A DNA stretch of 13,329 nt, taken from contig QZKU01000137.1 in the NCBI GenBank assembly GCA_003598085.1, positions 1-13,329 of the forward strand, in the 5' to 3' direction. Under the pieces are notes generated by a model. That model saw nothing but the letters and a program-made list of their open reading frames with translations, had not been told where the DNA came from and searched no databases. Shown here piece by piece: positions 296 through 13,329 of this stretch; the first letter of the stretch is position 1, and each line of letters begins with the position of its first letter. Both the position numbers and the translations under genes were made by a program. This DNA comes from Candidatus Abyssobacteria bacterium SURF_5. Lineage in GTDB: Bacteria; Abyssobacteria; SURF-5.

Positions 296-1891
296 TCAGG
301 AGGTTTCCTTCAGCTCGAGCACGAGGAGGCGCTGGCCTTTATGGGGGCCCCAGGGTTGCTCGAAGGTCTTGATGATCGAGAAGCGGGAGCGGTAGTCTTC
401 AGCGCCGCCGTAGCGCGTGAAAGCGAATTCAAGCATTCCCTCCCAATCGATGACGTACCGGATGCGTTCCTGCCGGAGATACGAAAACAGGTCGCCCGCC
501 TCAAGAAACGGAATGACGGAATCGTTTATGACTCCGTCGAGGTTCACCACCATCCTGTCGGAAAAGTAGCTGTAGATGCCGCAGTTGAACGAGCCGATCT
601 TTTCGTCCGGCGGAATCTGCTTTTGAATCCATGGGACCGCCTGCGCGTACATGGTCGAATGCAGGCTGTGCGTGCCGGCCGAGCCTCTGCCCTCGCGCCA
701 CGACGCAACGCCTGAGACGGCCGCATTGAGAAACAGGACGAGAAACGCGGCGAGCGAAAGCAGGCGAATCGATCGCTCATGCATCCTCTCCTTCAGCAAG
801 GTCGCGGCCGCGATAAACAATCCGGTGAAAATTACCAGATGGGCGGGATACAGATACCGATTCAGCGGCGCGAAGTTGGCGGCATAATATGACGCGTGCG
901 CAATCGGATAGAGAACGAAGACGAGCGCGGGCATCTCGATTCGCGTTCTCAGCGGCTTCCTGAAGACGGCGGCCGACAGCGCCAGCAGCATAACCAGCGC
1001 GAGCGGCCACAGCGGCATCAATCCGTAGACATGACCCGCCTCGGGCAGATACCGGACGATCATGTCCAGCCAATGCCCGAGAATTCCGCTGTCTCCCGCA
1101 GCTTCTCTCCCGATCCACAGCTTGAGCGCGCGATGGCTGTTCGGCAGCGCCGCGCCGGAGACGCGCCAACTGAATGCCAGCCACGGCATGATCAAGAGCA
1201 CTGCCGCAAGCGATACAGGAATGACGCGCGCCGACAGCCGCATCGCTTCTTCTTTTCTACGCATCCAGAAAAACAGCTGGTCGGCCGCCACGGCGAAACC
1301 GAGGAGCGCGCCGTCGAACCGCGCGAGCGCCGTCAACCCGAGCAACGCTCCGAGCTCAATGCCGCTCCGCACGGAAAGATGCTCGCGGCGCGGAAGATAA
1401 AAGGCGATCGTGCCGATCAGGAGCAGACCGAACAGCGCTGTCTCCAGGCCGCACATCGCGAGCGCGATCACGTTGTAATTGAACAGCCACAAAAATAATG
1501 CCGCGACGGCAACCCAGCGGTTTCCCGTCCTCACCACGATCCCGTAAATGAACAGCGCGGTCGCCACGTGGAAAAATGCGCAGAGCGTGAAGAGGAGGTG
1601 CACCGGCATCTTCGAGCCGCCCTCGAAGATGGAGACCAGCCCGAAAGATATCAGCATCCAGAGCGGGTGGAATCCGTTGGTCGGGTGAACGCCGTCGAGC
1701 GTGGCGCCCAGCCCCTGCGAAAGGCTCCTCGCCACCCCCAGATAATAAAAAACATCTTCGAACCCGAAATGGGAGAGGCTGACCTCGAGCGGAAGCCACG
1801 CGAGCAACAGACACAGAATCAACCCTGCGGCTGACAGAGCGCCGGCGAGGACTTTGTCGAGACGGGCGGGGAATGGATTGCTGCTGCTCAA
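296..1891 (-). CDS. Polytopic GT-C-type glycosyltransferase, putative
   Basis: A 531-residue integral membrane protein. It has a first membrane helix at about 14-36, many further helices to about 395, and a soluble C-terminal domain at about 405-531. Right after the first helix comes an acidic motif, GFEDVFYY (E45, D46), then HPTNGFHPLW (69-78). This is the arrangement expected of GT-C enzymes (ArnT/PMT-like), in which acidic residues in the first periplasmic loop take part in catalysis and the donor is usually a lipid-linked sugar. LARFDG at 189-194 also fits. Acceptor and sugar cannot be read from sequence. The start is a TTG at 1891, the only plausible one before the first helix, with a weak GGA Shine-Dalgarno. 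It begins 4 bp after the PilZ gene and is the last gene of the lptD operon. Family class is fairly secure; specificity is unknown. Confidence 0.75.
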   Translation of the reverse strand: MSSSNPFPARLDKVLAGALSAAGLILCLLLAWLPLEVSLSHFGFEDVFYYLGVARSLSQGLGATLDGVHPTNGFHPLWMLISFGLVSIFEGGSKMPVHLLFTLCAFFHVATALFIYGIVVRTGNRWVAVAALFLWLFNYNVIALAMCGLETALFGLLLIGTIAFYLPRREHLSVRSGIELGALLGLTALARFDGALLGFAVAADQLFFWMRRKEEAMRLSARVIPVSLAAVLLIMPWLAFSWRVSGAALPNSHRALKLWIGREAAGDSGILGHWLDMIVRYLPEAGHVYGLMPLWPLALVMLLALSAAVFRKPLRTRIEMPALVFVLYPIAHASYYAANFAPLNRYLYPAHLVIFTGLFIAAATLLKERMHERSIRLLSLAAFLVLFLNAAVSGVASWREGRGSAGTHSLHSTMYAQAVPWIQKQIPPDEKIGSFNCGIYSYFSDRMVVNLDGVINDSVIPFLEAGDLFSYLRQERIRYVIDWEGMLEFAFTRYGGAEDYRSRFSIIKTFEQPWGPHKGQRLLVLELKETS

Positions 1892-1895
1892 GAGT

Positions 1896-2324
1896 CTATT
1901 CCGGAATATTCTGAAGAAATGTGATTAGACGTTGCAGATTTCGCTGGTGTTTCTCCCTCATATGACGAAAACTCATGCCGATGATATACCCCTGCGTTTT
2001 CGTGGTCAGCTTATCGGCCCAAACGACGCGGCCATCGGTCTCTATTGGAGGAGCGACCGGGTTTTCAATAGCTATTTTCACCATCAGCCCGGGCGGGAGA
2101 CTGTGGTCCAGCTCGAGAGCGAGGCCGCGCTCGCTGATATTCAGGATATACGCGGTCTCTCCCTTCTGAAATTGGATATCCTGTGCCTTTACTGTCTTGC
2201 GGGAGGCGCCCGAAGGATTAAAGTCAAGGATTCCTTTTAAAGAGGTCTTGCAGGAATAACGCATGAATTTACGCCGTTCCCCTGTCTTCGCTTTTTTTCC
2301 GTTATCCCCCGGTTGCTTCTTCAT
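1896..2324 (-). CDS. PilZ-domain protein, likely c-di-GMP receptor
   Basis: A 142-residue soluble single-domain protein. The two PilZ signature motifs are both present: RKFMR (R18-xxx-R22) and NISERG (N62-x-S64-xx-G67). In this family they wrap around cyclic di-GMP. A beta-rich body follows, including DGRVVWAD and GYIIGMSF, and a C-terminal helix ends at 142. The first 15 residues are Lys-rich and probably flexible. The ATG at 2324 has a GAGG Shine-Dalgarno 5 nt upstream. It starts 10 bp after the UDP-xylose synthase gene and ends 4 bp before the glycosyltransferase, so it is almost certainly co-transcribed with both. A role in gating glycan synthesis or transfer by c-di-GMP is inference from context, comparable in logic to PilZ control of cellulose and alginate synthases. 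Confidence 0.85.
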   Translation of the reverse strand: MKKQPGDNGKKAKTGERRKFMRYSCKTSLKGILDFNPSGASRKTVKAQDIQFQKGETAYILNISERGLALELDHSLPPGLMVKIAIENPVAPPIETDGRVVWADKLTTKTQGYIIGMSFRHMREKHQRNLQRLITFLQNIPE

Positions 2325-2334
2325 AGGTTCCTCA

Positions 2335-3276
2335 CTAAGATGCTTGCATCCGCGTCCTGAAGAATTCTATTGTCCGCGCGAGTCCCACCCGCAAATCGAC
2401 TTTCGGCTCCCACTGAAGCGCCCTGCGCGCAAGTGTTATATCCGGCTGCCTCACCTTCGGATCATCGATCGGGAGCGGCTGCATGATAATCTCGCTGCCG
2501 CCACCAACGAGATCCCTCACCAGTTTTGCCAGCTCGAGCACGGACATCTCATTGGGATTTCCCACATTCACCGGCCCGCATTGCTCTGAATGCAGCAATC
2601 GAAAGATACCGTCCACCAGATCGTCGACGTAACAGAAGCTCCGGGTCTGCGAGCCGTCGCCGTACACGGTCAGCGGCTTGCCGGCAAGAGCCTGCGTGAT
2701 GAAATTGGATACTACCCTTCCGTCCTGCGGGCGCATCCGCGGCCCGTACGTGTTGAAAATCCTCGCGATGCGCGTCTGCATTTTGTGGACCCGGTGATAC
2801 GCCATCACAAGCGCCTCGGCGAAACGCTTCGCCTCATCGTATACTCCCCGCGGGCCGATGGGATTAACGTTGCCCCAATACGATTCCGGCTGCGGATGGA
2901 TCAGCGGGTCGCCGTAAACTTCCGAGGTCGAGGCCAGCAGCAGTCGCGCACCCTTGTCCTTCGCAAGGCCGAGCACTTTATGTGTTCCGAGCGCGCCCAC
3001 CTTCAATGTCTGGATCGGAAGTTCGAGGTAATCGATCGGGCTGGCGGGGGAGGCGAAATGAAGAACGTACTGCAGCGAACCCCCGACATAGATATATTCG
3101 GTCACATCGTGCTGGATGAATTTGAAATGCGGATTTCCGAACAGATGCGAGATGTTGTCGCACGTGCCCGTGATCAGGCTGTCGACGCAAATGACGTCGT
3201 ATCCTTCTCCGATGAATCGGTCGCACAGGTGCGAACCCAGAAACCCGGCGCCGCCGGTGATCAGTACCCTGGCCAA
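2335..3276 (-). CDS. uxs: UDP-glucuronate decarboxylase (UDP-xylose synthase)
   Basis: Converts UDP-glucuronate to UDP-xylose and CO2 in the cytosol with bound NAD. It is an extended short-chain dehydrogenase of 313 residues, normal for bacterial UXS. The Rossmann motif GGAGFLG is at 8-14 and the catalytic YxxxK is Y146-DEA-K150. Highly family-specific segments are ASPASPIDY (75-83), TSEVYGDP (117-124), [20 protein letters not shown] (131-150) and [10 protein letters not shown] (172-181). I place the start at a TTG (3276) because AAGGAGG lies 5 nt upstream and the protein then begins MARVLITGG. An ATG at 3357 would add 27 unrelated residues and overlap the previous gene by 70 bp. The gap to the upstream SDR gene is 11 bp. 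No UDP-glucose dehydrogenase, needed to make its substrate, is in the window. Confidence 0.92.
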
Positions 3277-3287
3277 ATATTCCTCCT

Positions 3288-4238
3288 TCAGGTATTCCTG
3301 CGCCAGTATTCGACCATGTCTCCAAGCGTCTTTGCCAGTGGAATGCTCGGCTTCCATCCGATGGCTTTCTGAATCTTCCCGTAATCGCCGCGTATCTCCT
3401 CGACGTCGCTCGGGCGCGTGCGGTCGGCCGATTCGACCACCTTCAGCTCGCGCCCCGAATACGCCATCAGCATTTCAAGCAGCGCGCTCACCGACACGGA
3501 TGCCCCCGAACAGATATTGTAGACTTCGCACGAGTCGCCGCCCTTCAGGATATCGCGATACGCGCGCACGACGTCCCTCACATCGAGGAAATCGCGCTTC
3601 GGCCGCAGATTGCCGACATGAATTTCGGGAGTGCGCCGCCCCTTCTCCGCCTCGACTATCTGTCGCGCAAAATCGGAGCACACGAAACGCGGCGACTGGC
3701 GCGGGCCGGTATGATTGAACGGGCGCACGCGCACGACGTGCAGATGGCTGTTCAGGCCGTATTCATACGCGAGCATGCTCGCGCTCACTTTGCTGACCGA
3801 ATACGGGTTCGTCGGCCTCAACGGGTTTTCCTCGCGAATGGGAAGCTCGCTCTGCTTGACGCGCCCGTACTCATCGGCCGAGCCCACGAACAGAACGCGC
3901 GGGCGATTTTTGAGTTTTCGCGCCGCCTCCAGGAGATTCAATGTGCCCAGCAGGTTGATCTTGAACGTTATCCGCGGATCAACGACCGAGTCCGGAATGA
4001 AAGTGAGCGCAGCCAGATGATAGATGCAGTCGGGTTTCGCCTGAGCGACTGCGCGATTCGTCGTTTCGACGTCCCGCAGATCGCAGTCGAGCAACTGCAC
4101 GTGCGAGAGCAGCGGCTTCAGATTCTGAAGATTCTCATCCGGCAGCCTGGTCCCGGCCACGTTCTCGCCGTCGCTCAGCAGCAGTTCGGCGAGATATGAC
4201 CCGGCAAAGCCTGCGATTCCGGTTATCAACGCTTTCAC
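3288..4238 (-). CDS. Nucleotide-sugar SDR, GDP-4-keto-6-deoxymannose reductase (Rmd)-like
   Basis: An NAD(P)-dependent extended SDR of 316 residues. The cofactor loop is GIAGFAG (7-13), with GSADEYG (119-125) and the catalytic Y146-SVS-K150. The stretch [12 protein letters not shown] (172-183), followed by VCSDFARQI and [20 protein letters not shown] (208-227), is typical of Rmd, which reduces GDP-4-dehydro-6-deoxy-D-mannose to GDP-D-rhamnose. The related dehydratase Gmd usually has NHESPRRG at the equivalent place, so Gmd is less likely. No gmd gene is in the window, leaving the true substrate open. The GTG start at 4238 has AGAAGGA 8 nt upstream. An ATG at 4277 would add 13 residues, lies inside a hairpin and lacks a ribosome site. 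Third gene of the lptD operon. Confidence 0.75.
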
Positions 4239-4259
4239 ATCAATGGTCCTTCTGCAAAA

Positions 4260-4283
4260 CGAGGGGCATGAGAACATGCCTCG
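4260..4283 (-). terminator. Hairpin plus short T-run inside the operon, possible attenuator or processing site
   Basis: In the 49-bp gap between the epimerase and Rmd-like genes, GGCATG (4265-4270) pairs with CATGCC (4275-4280) around a 4-nt loop. It extends by CGA/TCG across a 2-nt bulge. On the minus strand the stem is followed at once by TTTT (4259-4256), and the Shine-Dalgarno for the next gene starts a few bases later. The short T-run predicts partial termination or an RNA processing point rather than a full stop, since the genes on both sides form one functional set. Confidence 0.4.
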
Positions 4284-4287
4284 AACA

Positions 4288-5250
4288 TCATCGGGAAAAA
4301 TACTCGATCACTTTCCGCAGCAACTGCTCGAGCGACGTCTTCGGCTCGAAGCCGACCAACTTCCTTGCCTTGCTGATATCGGGCACGCGCCTGTGAAGGT
4401 CTTCGAAACCCTTCTCATACGCCTGCTCATAGGGCACATATTCAATTTTCGAATTGCTGTTGGTCATGCGGACAATCTTGTGCGCGAGCTCCGAAATGGT
4501 GATCGGCTCGGTCGAACCAAGATTAAATATCTCGCCCTCGGCCTTCGGATGCTCCGCCAGCGCAATGGTGCCCTCGACGATATCGTCAATATAAGAAAAA
4601 CAGCGTATCTGTTTTCCATCGCCGTACACGAGCAGCGGGTGACCCAGCAGAGCGGCCTTCACAAAGCGGGGAATGACCATGCCGTACTCGCCGGTCTGCC
4701 GCGGGCCGCACGTGTTGAAATAGCGAAGCGCGACGACCGGCAGTTTCTTTTCCCGCCAATACGCGAGCGCAAGAAACTCGTCGAACGCCTTGGTGCACGA
4801 GTAGCCCCAGCGCGAGATCGCGGTCGAGCCGAGTATCCTGTCGTCGTCTTCGCTTAGCCGGTCCTTCTCGTTCTTCCCGTAAATTTCGGAGGTGGACGCC
4901 AGGATCACCTTCCGCTTGTGACGGTTGGCGGATTCGAAAACGTTTTCCGTTCCCTTGATATTGATCCGCAGCGAATTGAGCGGATTGTCGATGATGTATT
5001 TGACTCCAACCGCAGCCGCCAGATGATACACCATTTGGCACTGCGATACCAACGAATCGACGGTGGAAGCGTCGAGAATCGTTCCGAGCACGAATGAAAA
5101 CTTCGGGTCCCCCTGAAGATGCTCGATGTTGTCGCGGCTGCCGGTCGATAGATCGTCAAGCACGCTCACGTGGTTTCCCCGCTTCGTCAGGGCCTCTGCA
5201 AGATGCGACCCGATGAAGCCGGCGCCGCCGGTTACCAGAATGTCGGCCAC
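4288..5250 (-). CDS. NAD-dependent nucleotide-sugar epimerase/dehydratase
   Basis: A 320-residue extended SDR with Rossmann motif GGAGFIG (8-14), TSEIYGKNE (120-128) and catalytic Y150-SCT-K154. It also has RYFNTCGPRQTGEYG (176-190), a sugar-nucleotide domain segment YGDGKQIRCFSYIDD (209-223), and a C-terminal RRVPDISKAR (287-296). This is a GalE/UXS-related clade common in polysaccharide clusters; reaction and substrate cannot be fixed from motifs. It may be a UDP-hexose or UDP-hexuronate 4-epimerase. The GTG start at 5250 lies inside lptD, overlapping its last 19 bp, with GAGGA 6-7 nt upstream, so translation is probably coupled to lptD. The next gene follows after 49 bp containing a hairpin. 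Family call is firm, precise activity open. Confidence 0.8.
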   Translation of the reverse strand: MADILVTGGAGFIGSHLAEALTKRGNHVSVLDDLSTGSRDNIEHLQGDPKFSFVLGTILDASTVDSLVSQCQMVYHLAAAVGVKYIIDNPLNSLRINIKGTENVFESANRHKRKVILASTSEIYGKNEKDRLSEDDDRILGSTAISRWGYSCTKAFDEFLALAYWREKKLPVVALRYFNTCGPRQTGEYGMVIPRFVKAALLGHPLLVYGDGKQIRCFSYIDDIVEGTIALAEHPKAEGEIFNLGSTEPITISELAHKIVRMTNSNSKIEYVPYEQAYEKGFEDLHRRVPDISKARKLVGFEPKTSLEQLLRKVIEYFSR

Positions 5251-7352
5251 TGCTTTTCCTCGATCGGTTCTATGTCGGTTGTCCGTTCGATCCGCCTCAT
5301 GGGGAACGCGGTTATATTAACGAGCGCCATGATCGAAGTCGCCTCGCGCCGGTCCCGAAGAACGAGAAAGAACTCCAGACAGTCCAGGCTGTGCCACACC
5401 CACAACTCCTGATATGAAAGCTCGTCTTCGGAAAAATCATATCGTTGCTCGAAGCCCGCACGCCACACCGGACCGAAGGATTTACTGGCCGCGTACACGA
5501 GCTGTGTTGTCGAAGGACTCTCCAAACTGTCGCCGTGAGTCGCACCGATATGAGCCTCAAACAGCTCCGGATTCGAGTACCTGAGGATGGCGCTTGCCAG
5601 GTCGTTGCGGGTCTCGTCCCTGAAATCGCTGAACGCCTTCAGCACCAGTTGCCAGTGCGGAATCGGAATGATCCAGAGCTCGTTGTCGAGCTCGGCAAGC
5701 TTGTCTTCGCCGTCATCGAATTCCACTCCCGCCGTTATCCGGTATTGGAGCACCTCGCGCTTGAGGCCGTCCCGCCGCTTGGCTTGCAGATAGTTGCGCA
5801 CCTCGATCTCGACTGAATTCGCGCGGTCGATCCGATCGACGTTGTCGAATTGCAGCAGGTCCTCCGGCCTGTCGTCGGGCTCGGGCCTGAACCGGTACGT
5901 CACCGTCGGCACCATGACGTGCCGGAAGTTCGAATACATGGGAAACAGCGAACCGTATACCCGCTGAACCTTTGTCTGCGCCGCCACGCCGGTGGACCAG
6001 GAGAGGCGGAATTCATCATCTTCCTCGTCCAGAGTATCAGAGTAATACGTCGCATCCCCTTCAACAAACGGAACGAATTCAAGCCTGTTCCACAAGCGCA
6101 CCGGGTACGCAATTCGCGCATCGGTGAAATTGCGCGCGGTATGGAAATCCTCCGGCTCATGGTTCAGGTAAGCGCTCTGATTTCCGCCGCTGAAGAAGAA
6201 GCCGGTATCGCCGATCCGCTGCTCGAGCAGTTCAAGCCTCAACTGGGGGAAGCGCTCGACCTGCTCAACATAATCCGCCAGCCGCACGCTGGTCAGGAAC
6301 GATATCACGTCGTGGGTTCCCGTTCGCTCGAGATTGAAGAACGACTGCGGCGGCTCGCGGTCTTCATATTTATCAAATGAATAGGTTTTCAAGAATTCTT
6401 CGTCGGTGTTGTATTCGGCGCGAAAAATCGCGTTCCACTCGTGCGGCAGGTTCTGCCGATAAAACGCGTATGCGGTCCCCCTGTGTTCATCCACGCCCGG
6501 CTCTTCGGCCTCGTCGCTCAAGTCGTAAATGTAGAACGTGTCGAACCAGCCGCGGCCATCTCCCTCGAACAGCTCGAGCTCGCCGTCCAATCCCGCGCCG
6601 ACACCGCTCTCAGTGAACGCGCGAACGTGCGGTTTCAGCGAGACGCCTTCCGCCGGCTCCACTTCATATGCCAGCCCGAGATAAGCGCCGACGTCCGATT
6701 GGGTGCCGGCTTCCAGTTCGATGGGAGGAACCCGGGTGTCGAGGTCCTGCGAATAATACGGGAAATAGAAAATCGGGACCGGCCCCGCAAACAGCGTGAG
6801 GTTTCGGGCGGTGATCCGTTCGTCGGGGACAACCTCGACAGAGCGCGCCCTCAGCGCGTAATGCGGGTCCGGCAATTCGCATGTGGTCAGCGATGCGTTG
6901 CGTACCGCGTACTCGCCCGACGGAACCCTCTGAATCTCCTCGGCCGATACATACCACGGATCGTTGTACCCGCGCGCTTCGTAGAAGACGCCTTCACCCG
7001 CCGAAAAATCATACAGGCCGCGCGTCCCTTCAACAACGGCGCCGCGGCTTGTTGCCTTCACGTTGCCTTCGATCTCCGCAAGCTCGCGAAGCGTATTGAT
7101 GACTGCCCGATCGCCCTCCAGTTTGCTCTCCGCCTGCACGATCTCGACATTGCCCTCTCCGGTGACAATGCCGGTGTCTCTGTCATACGTGACCCTGTCC
7201 GCGGAGAAGTAAACCGGTTCCTCCTTGCTGAAAAGGATCAGTTCGTCCTCGTTCAGGCGCTCCTCGGCCCATCCGGGTTTACTTACAGGAAACACCACAA
7301 GCATGAACACCCAGAAGAAAAGGCGCCTTCCCCTCGCCCGGCTGCTCGGCAT
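5232..7352 (-). CDS. lptD: LPS-assembly protein LptD (OstA/Imp)
   Basis: The outer-membrane beta-barrel that inserts LPS into the outer leaflet at the end of the Lpt bridge. The 706-residue product has a signal peptide (about 1-29, cleavage near GWAEE). An N-terminal LptA/OstA-like beta-jellyroll follows at about 45-170, with YFSADRVTYDRDTGIVTGEG at 48-67. The rest is a long barrel of alternating aromatic/polar strands ending in PTFW, an aromatic C-terminus as expected for BAM substrates. Only two cysteines are present, C158 in TTCELPD and C658 in SLDCLEFF, at the places that form inter-domain disulfides in the four-cysteine E. coli protein. It is somewhat shorter than E. coli LptD (784). The ATG at 7352 has GAGGAG 8 nt upstream and a promoter about 100 bp upstream. 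First gene of the glycan operon; its 3' end overlaps the epimerase start. Confidence 0.9.
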   Translation of the reverse strand: MPSSRARGRRLFFWVFMLVVFPVSKPGWAEERLNEDELILFSKEEPVYFSADRVTYDRDTGIVTGEGNVEIVQAESKLEGDRAVINTLRELAEIEGNVKATSRGAVVEGTRGLYDFSAGEGVFYEARGYNDPWYVSAEEIQRVPSGEYAVRNASLTTCELPDPHYALRARSVEVVPDERITARNLTLFAGPVPIFYFPYYSQDLDTRVPPIELEAGTQSDVGAYLGLAYEVEPAEGVSLKPHVRAFTESGVGAGLDGELELFEGDGRGWFDTFYIYDLSDEAEEPGVDEHRGTAYAFYRQNLPHEWNAIFRAEYNTDEEFLKTYSFDKYEDREPPQSFFNLERTGTHDVISFLTSVRLADYVEQVERFPQLRLELLEQRIGDTGFFFSGGNQSAYLNHEPEDFHTARNFTDARIAYPVRLWNRLEFVPFVEGDATYYSDTLDEEDDEFRLSWSTGVAAQTKVQRVYGSLFPMYSNFRHVMVPTVTYRFRPEPDDRPEDLLQFDNVDRIDRANSVEIEVRNYLQAKRRDGLKREVLQYRITAGVEFDDGEDKLAELDNELWIIPIPHWQLVLKAFSDFRDETRNDLASAILRYSNPELFEAHIGATHGDSLESPSTTQLVYAASKSFGPVWRAGFEQRYDFSEDELSYQELWVWHSLDCLEFFLVLRDRREATSIMALVNITAFPMRRIERTTDIEPIEEKQWPTFW

Positions 7353-7455
7353 CCCGTCCGCTCCTCAATTCTGCGCATGCGTGTGATAACCGCGGCCGCC
7401 CTCTGGTCGGATTTCATGTCACATCGGCGGCAATTGGAATGCAGATAACTGGAGG

Positions 7456-7484
7456 ATTATAACACAGGGACGAAAATACTTCAA
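7456..7484 (-). promoter_or_regulatory. sigma70-type promoter for the lptD operon
   Basis: On the minus strand TTGAAG (7484-7479) is followed by exactly 17 bp and then a perfect TATAAT (7461-7456), preceded by TGT, an extended -10. The expected transcript start is near 7449, giving a leader of about 97 nt before the lptD ATG. The leader contains GGCGGC (7426-7431) and its complement GCCGCC (7395-7400), which could form a weak stem. There is no other gene between this promoter and lptD. Confidence 0.65.
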
Positions 7485-7546: not shown

Positions 7547-9337
7547 TTATACCGGCGTCGCCGATAGAAATTGACGATCGTACGCCGCTACCAGATCGGT
7601 TCGGCTGAGGATGCCGATCACTTTCTGCGGATTCTCCTCATCAACGACAATGACCTCGTCGGATTGCGACGTCACCATCTTATGCACCGCCGAATAAAGG
7701 TTCTCCTGCGGCGTCACCTTCGGCGGGTTCACCGCCAGTTCTTTCGCGATAACAAGCTGATCGATAAACCCCGCCTCGCGAATCGCCTGTCGCAGATCGC
7801 GCCCGTCCACCATCCCCGCAAGGTTTCCGTGTCTGTCGAGGACGGGGAAACATGCCTGCTTCGTTCCCGCAAACTTGTCAAGCAACTCGCGCAGCGTCGC
7901 CGTCTCGTTCACCATGACAAATGGCTTCTGCGCCCCGTTCGCGAGCGCATCGGCGACAGTCAGCCGCTTCAGGATGCCGCCCATCATCTCACCCATGTGC
8001 GACGGCGAGTCCATGCGCGTGGGAAGCTGCCTCTCATAGATGGTCGACCGGCGCACGAGCAGATAGGCGATGATGCAGACCCACATCGACGGCACGAGCA
8101 GGTTGTAATTGCCGGTCATCTCGCTGACCATGATCACGGTCGAAATCGGAGTGTTGGCCGCGGCCGCGAAAAAGCCCGCCATTCCGACCATCACGAATGC
8201 GCCCGGATCGATGCTCATGCCCGGGAAGATTCGCTGCATCGCGATACCGACCGCGCCGCCGAGCGCTCCGCCAATGACTACCGACGGTCCGAACACCCCG
8301 CCGCTCCCTCCCGACCCGATCGAAAACGAGGTGGTCAGAATCTTGCCTGCCGCCAAAACCAGCAGGAGAGTCAATCCGAACTGTCCCGCAAACGCGCCAT
8401 CGACTATCCCATAGCCGGTCCCAAGCGCGGCCGGCAAGAAGAATCCGATGACACCGACCACCAGTCCGCCGATCGCCGGCTTCAGGTAGTTGGGCAATTT
8501 AAGCGAGCGAAAAACGTCGCGGACCCCGTAAAATGTCCTGATGAAGATGACCGCACCGCCCGCGAGCACAAGGGCCAAAAAGAAATACGGGACAAGCTCG
8601 GCCGGGTTGCGAAAGAGAAAATGACGCGATTCAAACAGCGGGTCCCATCCGAAGACCGACGCGAAGACCGCATACGAGATCACCGAAGAGATGATCGCCG
8701 GCACGATCACCTCGTACTCCATATCCATTTCCCGATACAGCACTTCGGCCGCAAACAATGCTCCCGCAAGCGGAGCATGGAAAACGGCGCCGATACCGGC
8801 GGCCATGCCGGACGCCAGCAGGATGCGCCGTTCGTACGCGCTCAACCGCAACAGATTCGCGAGTATTGAGCCGAATCCGGCGCCGATTTGCGCGATCGGA
8901 CCTTCGCGTCCCCCCGAGCCGCCGGTGCCGATCGTTATTGCAGAGGCGACGGCCTTTATGACAGGGATGCGGGCGCGCACCTCGCCGCGCTTGAAGTGAT
9001 ATGAATTAATAGCCGCGTCCGTGCCGTGTCCTTCGGCTTCCGGCGCAAACAGATAGACGATGAGCCCGCTGAGGATGCCGCCCAGGGCGGGAATGAAGAA
9101 GAGCAGCCACCGCCGGAAAGGGGTGGCGGGCTCGGGAAACAGTTGCAGTTCTCCCGACGGTATCGCAGGACTGAAGCCGGCAAGCACCCCGAGCGCATAA
9201 TGCTTGGTGAGTTCGAGAGCCCAGACAAACGCGATGGCGCCAATGCCCGATACTACGCCGACCAGCCCACACAGCATCAGGAGACGGCCCAGCTTTCTGG
9301 CCATATCGACCGGCGTGGGGAAAAAAGGTCTGCTCAA
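7547..9337 (-). CDS. CLC-family chloride channel/transporter with two CBS domains
   Basis: A membrane anion channel or Cl-/H+ exchanger of the CLC fold. Numbered from the TTG at 9337 (596 residues), the gate motif GSGGREGP is at 140-147 with gating glutamate E145. The helix-N motif GSGGSGGVFGP is at 341-351. Y434 (in STIYERQ) matches the pore tyrosine Y445 of E. coli ClcA. Two CBS domains, about 457-515 and 528-590, form a cytosolic regulatory unit that in other CLCs binds adenine nucleotides. Two pore positions differ from ClcA: GHGTD (103-107) replaces GSGIP, and V199 replaces the internal proton glutamate E203. A GTG at 9376 would add 13 residues, but its AGGGAG is only 2 nt away. The TTG has AAGGAAG upstream and is preferred, though not certain. 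It appears to be transcribed alone. Confidence 0.88.
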   Translation of the reverse strand: MSRPFFPTPVDMARKLGRLLMLCGLVGVVSGIGAIAFVWALELTKHYALGVLAGFSPAIPSGELQLFPEPATPFRRWLLFFIPALGGILSGLIVYLFAPEAEGHGTDAAINSYHFKRGEVRARIPVIKAVASAITIGTGGSGGREGPIAQIGAGFGSILANLLRLSAYERRILLASGMAAGIGAVFHAPLAGALFAAEVLYREMDMEYEVIVPAIISSVISYAVFASVFGWDPLFESRHFLFRNPAELVPYFFLALVLAGGAVIFIRTFYGVRDVFRSLKLPNYLKPAIGGLVVGVIGFFLPAALGTGYGIVDGAFAGQFGLTLLLVLAAGKILTTSFSIGSGGSGGVFGPSVVIGGALGGAVGIAMQRIFPGMSIDPGAFVMVGMAGFFAAAANTPISTVIMVSEMTGNYNLLVPSMWVCIIAYLLVRRSTIYERQLPTRMDSPSHMGEMMGGILKRLTVADALANGAQKPFVMVNETATLRELLDKFAGTKQACFPVLDRHGNLAGMVDGRDLRQAIREAGFIDQLVIAKELAVNPPKVTPQENLYSAVHKMVTSQSDEVIVVDEENPQKVIGILSRTDLVAAYDRQFLSATPV

Positions 9338-9442
9338 AACGAACTCTTCCTTTAGAAAACCGAACTCGAAAAACACAACTCCCTAAACTATGAGCAACCT
9401 GATTTTCCGGCTCGTGCGGGAGATGTGCCGAGGCTTTTCTTA

Positions 9443-9534: not shown

Positions 9535-9936
9535 TTATTCCGCAACTTTCAGCCGCGCTATGGCTCGTTTCAAAGCGGCCTCGGCGCGGTCGATATCGAT
9601 ATCCGGACCGGGCGCGGAAATCCGCTCGCGAGCCCGGGTCATTGCGGCTCGAGCCCGCTCAACGTCGATTTCTTCCTTTTTCTCAGCCGTATCAACCAAC
9701 AGCGTCGCCCCCTGGCTGGTTACCGCCAGAAAGCCTTCGCCAACGGCCATCTTCGCTTCGGACCCGCCTTCAAGCTTTATGGATACGATACCGATCTCAA
9801 TATTGGTCAGCAGCGGCGCGTGACCCGCCAGAATCCCCAGGTATCCGAGCCCACCGGGCGCGGTCAGGCACTCTACGTCGTCGCTAAAGACCGTTTTTTT
9901 CAAGGTGACTATATCGAGCGGATATGGTTTCGCCAC
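9535..9936 (-). CDS. atpC: F1 ATP synthase epsilon subunit
   Basis: Part of the rotating central stalk (gamma-epsilon) of F1. Its C-terminal helices can brake ATP hydrolysis. The 133-residue length is normal. The N-terminal beta-sandwich spans about 1-85, with LTAPGGLGYLGILAGHAPLL at 24-43 and VGEGFLAVTSQGATLLVDTAE typical of the family. Residues 88-133 form the two-helix C-terminal domain, ending in AALKRAIARLKVAE. The start is a GTG at 9936 with AAGGGG 9 nt upstream, lying inside the end of atpD. The gap to atpD is 6 bp. It is the last gene of the operon, before the terminator at 9474-9510. Confidence 0.95.
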   Translation of the reverse strand: MAKPYPLDIVTLKKTVFSDDVECLTAPGGLGYLGILAGHAPLLTNIEIGIVSIKLEGGSEAKMAVGEGFLAVTSQGATLLVDTAEKKEEIDVERARAAMTRARERISAPGPDIDIDRAEAALKRAIARLKVAE

Positions 9937-9942
9937 AATCGT

Positions 9943-11382
<1,440 letters not shown>

Positions 11383-11397
11383 TCATCAGCATATGCA

Positions 11398-11420
11398 CGG
11401 CCGCCCGCCTTCGGCGGCCG
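11398..11420. repeat. GC-rich hairpin in the atpG-atpD gap
   Basis: CGGCCGCC (11398-11405) pairs exactly with GGCGGCCG (11413-11420) over a 7-nt loop. A nested alternative, CCGCC with GGCGG around TTC, is also possible. No T-run follows on the minus strand, so it is not an intrinsic terminator. It may act as an mRNA stabiliser or processing site that sets atpD output relative to atpG, or be a REP-like dispersed palindrome. Confidence 0.5.
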
Positions 11421-11454
11421 ATACGGGCGCGCAAGAATGACGGTTCACCCGCAG

Positions 11455-12321
11455 TCACTTTTTCACGGTCGCGTCGGCGCCGGCGACTACCTCAAGGATC
11501 TCCCGCGTGATCGACGCCTGCCGAACCTTGTTGTAGTTCAGCGTCAGCGTGCGGATCATCTCGTCGGCGTTGTCCGTCGCATTCCTCATCGACACCATGC
11601 GGTTGCCCTGTTCGGACGCAGCCGCCTGCACGAGCGCGAGGTAAATCTGGTTCTGAAGATATTTCGGGAGCAGCTTCTGCATCAGGCCTTCGGCGCTCGG
11701 CTCGAAGATGTACAACGCGCTCATCCCGGCCTTTTCCTGCGGCTCGGCGTGCTCGATCGGGAGCAGTTGCGCCTGAGTGGGAAACGTGAGAATGGCGCTC
11801 TTGAACCTGGTGTAGAAGAGCACAACCTGATCGAATTCGCTGCGCTCGTAAGCTTCGGACAAATAACGGGTGACCTCCTGGACGAAGGACACCTCGATGT
11901 CCCGCCCGGGAAACGGCCAGTATTTCAGTATCTCATACGGGCGCTTCTTGAAGAACTCGTTGGCCTTCTTGCCGATGATGACCAGGCGCACCGACTCTTT
12001 TTTCAGCGAGCGGATGTATTCCATCGCCTTGTTGATGATATTAGCGTTATACGCGCCGCACAGCCCCTTGTCCGAGGTAACGAGCACGAGGCAAGTACGC
12101 TCGACCGGCCGCTGCACCAGCAGCGGGTGCGAAATGCCCGAGACCGACTTGGCCACGTCCGACATCATGGCCCGAAGCTTGTCCGCGTACGGGACGGCGG
12201 ATTTCACCTGGTCTTCCGCCCGCTTCAGCTTCGAGGCGGCGACCATCTCCATCGCGCGCGTTATCTGCTGAATGTTCTTCACGCTACGGATGCGGTTTCG
12301 TATTTCTCGTGTATTTGCCAT
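11455..12321 (-). CDS. atpG: F1 ATP synthase gamma subunit
   Basis: The central rotor shaft of F1, with N- and C-terminal helices forming a coiled coil inside the alpha3beta3 ring. At 288 residues it is very close to E. coli AtpG (287). The N-terminal helix MANTREIRNRIRSVKNIQQI (1-20), continuing TRAMEMVAASKL, and the central SDKGLCGAYN (83-92) are strongly conserved. The C-terminal helix carries the family pattern MRNATDNADEMI...TLNYNKVRQASITREI. The ATG at 12321 lies 3 bp after the atpA stop, with only a weak GGA Shine-Dalgarno, so translation is probably coupled to atpA. Confidence 0.96.
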   Translation of the reverse strand: MANTREIRNRIRSVKNIQQITRAMEMVAASKLKRAEDQVKSAVPYADKLRAMMSDVAKSVSGISHPLLVQRPVERTCLVLVTSDKGLCGAYNANIINKAMEYIRSLKKESVRLVIIGKKANEFFKKRPYEILKYWPFPGRDIEVSFVQEVTRYLSEAYERSEFDQVVLFYTRFKSAILTFPTQAQLLPIEHAEPQEKAGMSALYIFEPSAEGLMQKLLPKYLQNQIYLALVQAAASEQGNRMVSMRNATDNADEMIRTLTLNYNKVRQASITREILEVVAGADATVKK

Positions 12322-12324
12322 GCT

Positions 12325-13329
12325 TTATTCCGGCTTGAACAGAAGCTTGAACTCTTCCGTCGCTTTCTTCAACTGTTCCAACGTCTGATCGTCCACTTTC
12401 TTGGTGGTGCGGATGGCCTCGCCGATCGCGGAATACCGGTCCTTCATGAACTCGTGGAAATCGGACTCGAACGCCTTGATCTTATCGACCGGGACATCAT
12501 CGAGCAATCCCAGATTGGCGACGGCGATGATTTGCACCTGCTGCTCGACCGGCATCGGCTCGTACTGCGGCTGCTTGAGCACCTCGACGAGCCGCTCACC
12601 GCGCGCGAGCTGCGCCTGGGTCGCCTTATCCAGCTCCGAACCGAACTGAGCGAACGCGGCAAGCTCGCGGTACTGCGCAAGGCTCAACCGCAGCGTGCCG
12701 GCCACTTTTTTCATGCCCGCGATCTGCGCATTGCCGCCCACGCGCGACACCGACAGGCCGACCGAGACGGCGGGGCGTACTCCGGCATAGAACAGGTCGG
12801 TCTCGAGATAGATCTGGCCGTCGGTAATGGAAATCACGTTGGTCGGAATGTAAGCCGAGAAGTCGCCGGCCTGTGTTTCCACGATTGGAAGCGCGGTAAG
12901 CGACCCGCCTCCCAGTTTGTCCGACAGCTTCGCCGCCCTTTCGAGCAGGCGCGAATGCAGGTTGAAGATGTCGCCCGGGTACGCCTCGCGTCCGGGGGGC
13001 CGGCGCAGCAGAAGCGACATGGTTCGATAGGCGACCGCGTGCTTGGACAGATCATCATAAATAATCAGCGCATGCTTGCCGTTGTCGCGGAACTCCTCGC
13101 CCATCGCGCAGCCGGAATACGGCGAAATGTATTGCATCGGGGCGGGATCGCTCGCGTTTGCGGCCACGATGATGGTATAGTCCATGGCGCCGTAGCGCTC
13201 GAGCGTCTCCATGACGCCGACCACGGTCGACTGCTTCTGTCCGATCGCGACGTAGATGCAATAGACATCACCGCCGCGCTGGTTGATGATGGTATCGACG
13301 GCGAGTGCCGTCTTGCCCGTCTGCCGGTC
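12325..13329 (-). CDS. atpA: F1 ATP synthase alpha subunit, 5' end cut by window
   Basis: The non-catalytic nucleotide-binding subunit that alternates with beta in F1. The frame is open to the right edge and begins there with [17 protein letters not shown], so the window cuts the P-loop GDRQTGKT after its first glycine. The 334 residues present correspond to roughly the last two thirds of a protein of about 500. [14 protein letters not shown] contains the arginine finger that reaches into the beta active site. The C-terminal helical domain ends in [10 protein letters not shown]. The true start and any atpH/atpF genes lie beyond the edge. No defect is seen in the visible part. Confidence 0.97.

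Follow-up and report, generated by a model that had tools for sequence, protein, structure and literature searches.

The lptD gene of Candidatus Abyssobacteria bacterium SURF_5 appears to head a co-expression unit that links the supply of LPS sugars to LPS export, a reading of the locus that we rate somewhat better than even. We favor it because the order of five genes has been kept in three genera despite near-saturated dS and altered flanks, with identical promoter hexamers and spacing. It is further favored because LpxC, LptF/G, Gmd, and GGDEF proteins occur in all three genomes, and because two further phyla also have lptD near ugd and UXS, where the linked UXS sequences do not group in a tree. 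Judged by sequence, the individual parts belong to known families, and what seems to be new is their combination.

The DNA analyzed (13,329 nucleotides, hereafter called the window) is one whole contig of a 145-contig genome of 5.1 Mb. Its relevant features are as follows.

7456..7484, minus strand: candidate promoter TTGAAG-N17-TATAAT with an extended -10 (TGTGTTATAATC); same hexamers and spacing 5' of lptD in G001 and G002, relatives from two other genera
5232..7352, minus strand: lptD, LPS assembly outer-membrane protein, 706 aa (LptD_N match and LptD-structure matches)
4288..5250, minus strand: SDR1, UXS-like extended SDR, a probable UDP-uronate or UDP-pentose enzyme (best PDB matches UXS1)
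3288..4238, minus strand: SDR2, Rmd-like GDP-4-keto-6-deoxy-D-mannose reductase, by sequence (best PDB match 2pk3)
2335..3276, minus strand: UXS, putative UDP-glucuronate decarboxylase/UDP-xylose synthase (best PDB match human UXS1, signature complete)
1896..2324, minus strand: stand-alone PilZ-domain protein, 142 aa (PF07238, both motifs present)
296..1891, minus strand: GT-C-like membrane glycosyltransferase, 531 aa (PMT_2 below cut-off, hydrophobic segments)

A Conserved Unit Headed by lptD

The original prediction described six tightly spaced minus-strand genes following one promoter-like site. This arrangement is borne out by the reading frames, all six of which are open on that strand, by the site at 7484-7456, and by its conservation in two other genera. 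Two start positions deserve comment. SDR2 probably begins at GTG 4238, which matches the starts in G001 and G002, in a frame that is open from 4277. UXS probably begins at TTG 3276, which is preceded by the Shine-Dalgarno sequence AAGGAGG, in a frame that is open from 3357. With these revised starts, lptD and SDR1 overlap by 19 bp, and the gaps that follow are 49, 11, 10, and 4 bp.

Promoter-like sites are not in excess in the region scanned, where five were found and 3.8 were expected from shuffled sequences, and so the site alone is not significant. It becomes convincing because it lies in a block that is kept across three genera. The TTGAAG-N17-TATAAT arrangement is found 5' of lptD in the window, G001, and G002, and 24 of about 30 columns in the block are identical, whereas the flanks are not.

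Among 60 relatives searched, only G001 and G002 belong to the same family, and the others share only its taxonomic domain. In both, tblastn recovers the identical order lptD-SDR1-SDR2-UXS-PilZ. The GT-C gene follows pilZ in G001, and no GT-C orthologue was found by tblastn after pilZ in G002. At the expected GT-C place in G002, a REP-like element (GTCATTCCCGCGAAGAGAGGAATC) follows pilZ (L034, ~12375-12400, minus strand).

All six genes have low dN (0.10-0.45) set against near-saturated dS (~1.7 upwards), which implies that gene order has been retained over a long time. The surroundings have not been retained to the same degree. Beyond the unit there is a creatininase-family gene in G001 and acyl-CoA-ligase-type genes in G002, and the flanks vary between genera except for a ClC gene 5' of lptD in two of the three. 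In the window, this ClC-type chloride channel gene with CBS domains occupies 7547-9376, just 5' of lptD, and G002 is arranged likewise; in G001, an acyl-CoA dehydrogenase gene on the opposite strand takes its place. Before the ClC gene and on the same strand, ORFs at 9535-13224 resemble atpC, atpD, atpG, and a cut-off atpA, all named from sequence.

The neighborhood comparison that had been proposed as a check therefore finds lptD together with the sugar genes in both G001 and G002. The order and promoter common to three genera point to an operon-like unit headed by lptD, as had been suggested.

LptD and the LPS Machinery

LptD is commonly regarded as a housekeeping protein. The assignment of the first gene begins with the LptD_N (OstA) domain PF03968, which scores 24.2 bits against a cut-off of 20.4, and with a match of the window protein alone to LptD structure 8h1r (E=1e-12, residues 42-283). 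The barrel domain PF04453 was not matched by the single sequence in a Pfam scan. A profile of 14 family members (the window protein and 13 relatives) nevertheless aligns with LptD structures over nearly its full length at E=4.5e-55, although some of this strength comes from the 8 of the 14 members that match PF04453 themselves. An AlphaFold model made from two sequences reached a pLDDT of 32 and was discarded. The protein, which is 53-54% identical to its G001 and G002 counterparts, resembles LptD of the LptD-LptE translocon in its LptD_N domain, its conserved TTC...PHY / PIFYFPY region, and the alignment of its family profile over the barrel region. It differs in its lack of a single-sequence PF04453 match and in the position of its gene at the head of an operon-like sugar-nucleotide unit.

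Profile searches place LpxC and LptF/G over cut-off in all three genomes, and therefore lipid A-based LPS and an export bridge are expected in these organisms.

Enzymes for Xylose and Probably D-Rhamnose

The UXS signature comprises, in human numbering, T118, S119, E120, R144, Y147, K151, N176, R277, A79, and Y84 (PMC12820599). The window UXS carries all ten residues in alignments, finds human UXS1 as its best PDB match (E=3.4e-111), and is 82-84% identical to the G001 and G002 proteins. In closest match and complete signature it is like UXS1 (EC 4.1.1.35), and the difference is that the UXS of this family sits within a unit headed by lptD. SDR1, which is 79% identical in both G001 and G002, also has UXS1 entries as its best PDB matches and retains eight of the ten signature positions. 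Because the A79 and Y84 positions are changed, we term it only UXS-like.

For SDR2, a sequence search of the PDB gives a full-length top match to Rmd, the GDP-6-deoxy-D-lyxo-4-hexulose reductase (2pk3; E=3.5e-70, 240 bits, versus 116 bits for Gmd 1rpn), and places the protein nearer to characterized Rmd than to Gmd or GalE. Gmd itself is over cut-off in all three genomes and is encoded elsewhere than in the unit; in the window genome it lies on another contig, a difference from the otherwise close likeness to Rmd. Since SDR2 is nearest Rmd and Gmd is present, GDP-D-rhamnose is a likely product of the two enzymes. These matches agree with the pentose or deoxyhexose that had been expected: the pentose would be xylose, supplied as UDP-xylose, and the deoxyhexose is probably D-rhamnose.

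lptD and UXS in Other Lineages

The partner set had been called unusual for lptD, and a survey of 30 lptD loci from other phyla upholds this view. The gene 3' of lptD is scattered among unrelated families in this rough survey, which considered at each locus the longest ORF running in the same direction as lptD within 350 bp and omitted loci lacking one. Some other lineages do pair lptD with sugar-nucleotide genes, among them ugd, on which UXS depends for its substrate. In G069, from a second phylum, lptD-ugd-UXS is followed by genes for DUF3179, SDR, and SDR1 proteins and then by another ugd and a WecA-like transferase gene. In G210, its sole phylum mate in the sample, lptD-ugd lies at the edge of one contig, and a different contig carries UXS-SDR-SDR-SDR1-ugd-GT4. 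In G363, from a third phylum, there is a compact same-strand lptD-ugd-SDR-UXS run, and this linkage is absent from the phylum mates of G363 that were examined. Because the next gene varies in the 30 loci and the G363 linkage is not found in its phylum mates, the coupling is not general.

Two loci also came to attention. At L236:281-7188, in another phylum, a compact lptD-ugd-SDR-UXS run has a CDP-alcohol phosphatidyltransferase gene just 5'. Another lpt-UXS neighborhood, L242:4-6892, was ruled out as a case of lptD near UXS, as its order is lptC-lptA-lptB-rpoN-M61 peptidase-UXS.

When 52 UXS sequences were placed in a tree, the lptD-linked UXS of different lineages did not form one group, though with low support. 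The linkage may therefore have arisen repeatedly and independently. With lptD lying within ~6 kb of UXS in just 1 of 40 sampled UXS loci, however, the recurrence is suggestive rather than proof. A search of non-subscription literature found no paper that describes lptD in company with a PilZ gene or with genes for UDP-xylose.

These surveys bear on another explanation, which we regard as a minority possibility of some weight. The sugar genes could serve an exopolysaccharide, a capsule, or a protein glycan, with lptD a merely co-transcribed envelope gene and the PilZ protein acting on that polysaccharide, as in BcsA. UXS is present in 218 of 386 genomes, mostly distant from lptD. Furthermore, of 60 outside SDR1 loci, 9 have a close UXS relative within the same ~19 kb, and 8 of these 9 lack a neighboring lptD. 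The SDR1-UXS linkage may partly reflect a general clustering of polysaccharide genes. Exopolysaccharides are also what c-di-GMP usually governs (PMC8669472). Weighed against this, LptD was the sole exporter recognized in the unit or its annotated flanks, where neither a polymerase nor a flippase was recognized, and lptD is the first gene in three genera and lies beside ugd or UXS in two further phyla.

The PilZ and GT-C Proteins

The fifth gene encodes a protein that matches PF07238 (E=2e-13) and keeps both PilZ motifs, RxxxR (RKFMR) and (D/N)xSxxG (NISERG), in the window, G001, and G002. GGDEF proteins, with six to eight matches in each of the three genomes, lead us to expect that c-di-GMP is made. 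Taken together, the intact motifs and the GGDEF proteins make it possible that the unit responds to c-di-GMP. Among the neighborhoods scanned, a PilZ gene adjoins lptD only in the family of the window, as judged with a three-sequence profile that a divergent PilZ could escape. The arrangement recalls BcsA-type PilZ-regulated polysaccharide systems, in which a PilZ module is genetically joined to glycan genes. It differs from cellulose synthase BcsA in that the window PilZ stands alone as a small protein encoded near an LPS export gene and is not fused to a synthase.

Some PilZ proteins do not bind c-di-GMP. Even if sugar supply and export are coupled as we favor, the PilZ protein could be a c-di-GMP-independent partner in a constitutive unit, which we think rather unlikely. 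This idea draws on such nonbinding proteins, on the long segment that separates its motifs, and on a sequence search that found no PDB relative. Retention of both motifs in three genera at an overall identity of 50-54%, along with the presence of GGDEF proteins, argues against it.

The last gene encodes a protein with eight hydrophobic segments that scores 23.8 bits against Pfam PMT_2, below the cut-off of 26.1, and a sequence search of the PDB found no relative. Its FED and HPTNG(F/Y)HPLW motifs are common to G001. The multi-pass character and an acidic first-loop motif are shared with ArnT and other GT-C/PMT enzymes; the sub-threshold PMT_2 score, the missing PDB match, and the lack of the gene behind pilZ in G002 set it apart. 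Of the overall proposal made for this locus, the operon-like unit, the sugar enzymes, and the unusual partners are supported, and the comparison of the last protein with ArnT is not.

How the Unit Might Work

Chance proximity, with neighbors preserved by slow rearrangement and sharing no function, is improbable, for although lptD neighbors vary widely among phyla and the G363 linkage is not common to its phylum, the five genes hold their order and tight spacing despite changed flanks and near-saturated dS, and the promoter block is retained.

In the co-expression reading, the conserved extended -10 promoter would drive a single transcription unit, presumably as one transcript. This unit would yield the LptD translocon, the UDP-xylose enzymes (UXS and the UXS-like SDR1), and the GDP-D-rhamnose enzyme Rmd, with Gmd supplied from elsewhere. 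Their co-expression would match the sugar supply, for what we infer to be LPS core or O-chain, to the capacity for export. In the cytoplasm, the PilZ protein might bind c-di-GMP and tune a sugar step, most likely through contact with a synthesis enzyme or glycosyltransferase. Where present, the GT-C protein might work at the periplasmic face and attach a sugar carried by a lipid.

A bolder version can be offered only tentatively. The unit would be c-di-GMP-responsive and would couple LptD export capacity to the synthesis of xylose and D-rhamnose destined for LPS. The whole outer-membrane surface would then be reset by a second messenger, and the coupling of lptD with UXS would have evolved repeatedly.

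A link between LPS sugars and LPS export is functionally sensible and would not be shocking; the surprising part is the predicted connection to PilZ. If the co-expression reading is true, the conserved promoter provides a concrete case of linked control over LPS make-up and export. The repeated occurrence of lptD near ugd and UXS may likewise offer a way to predict the sugars that decorate LPS in uncultured bacteria.
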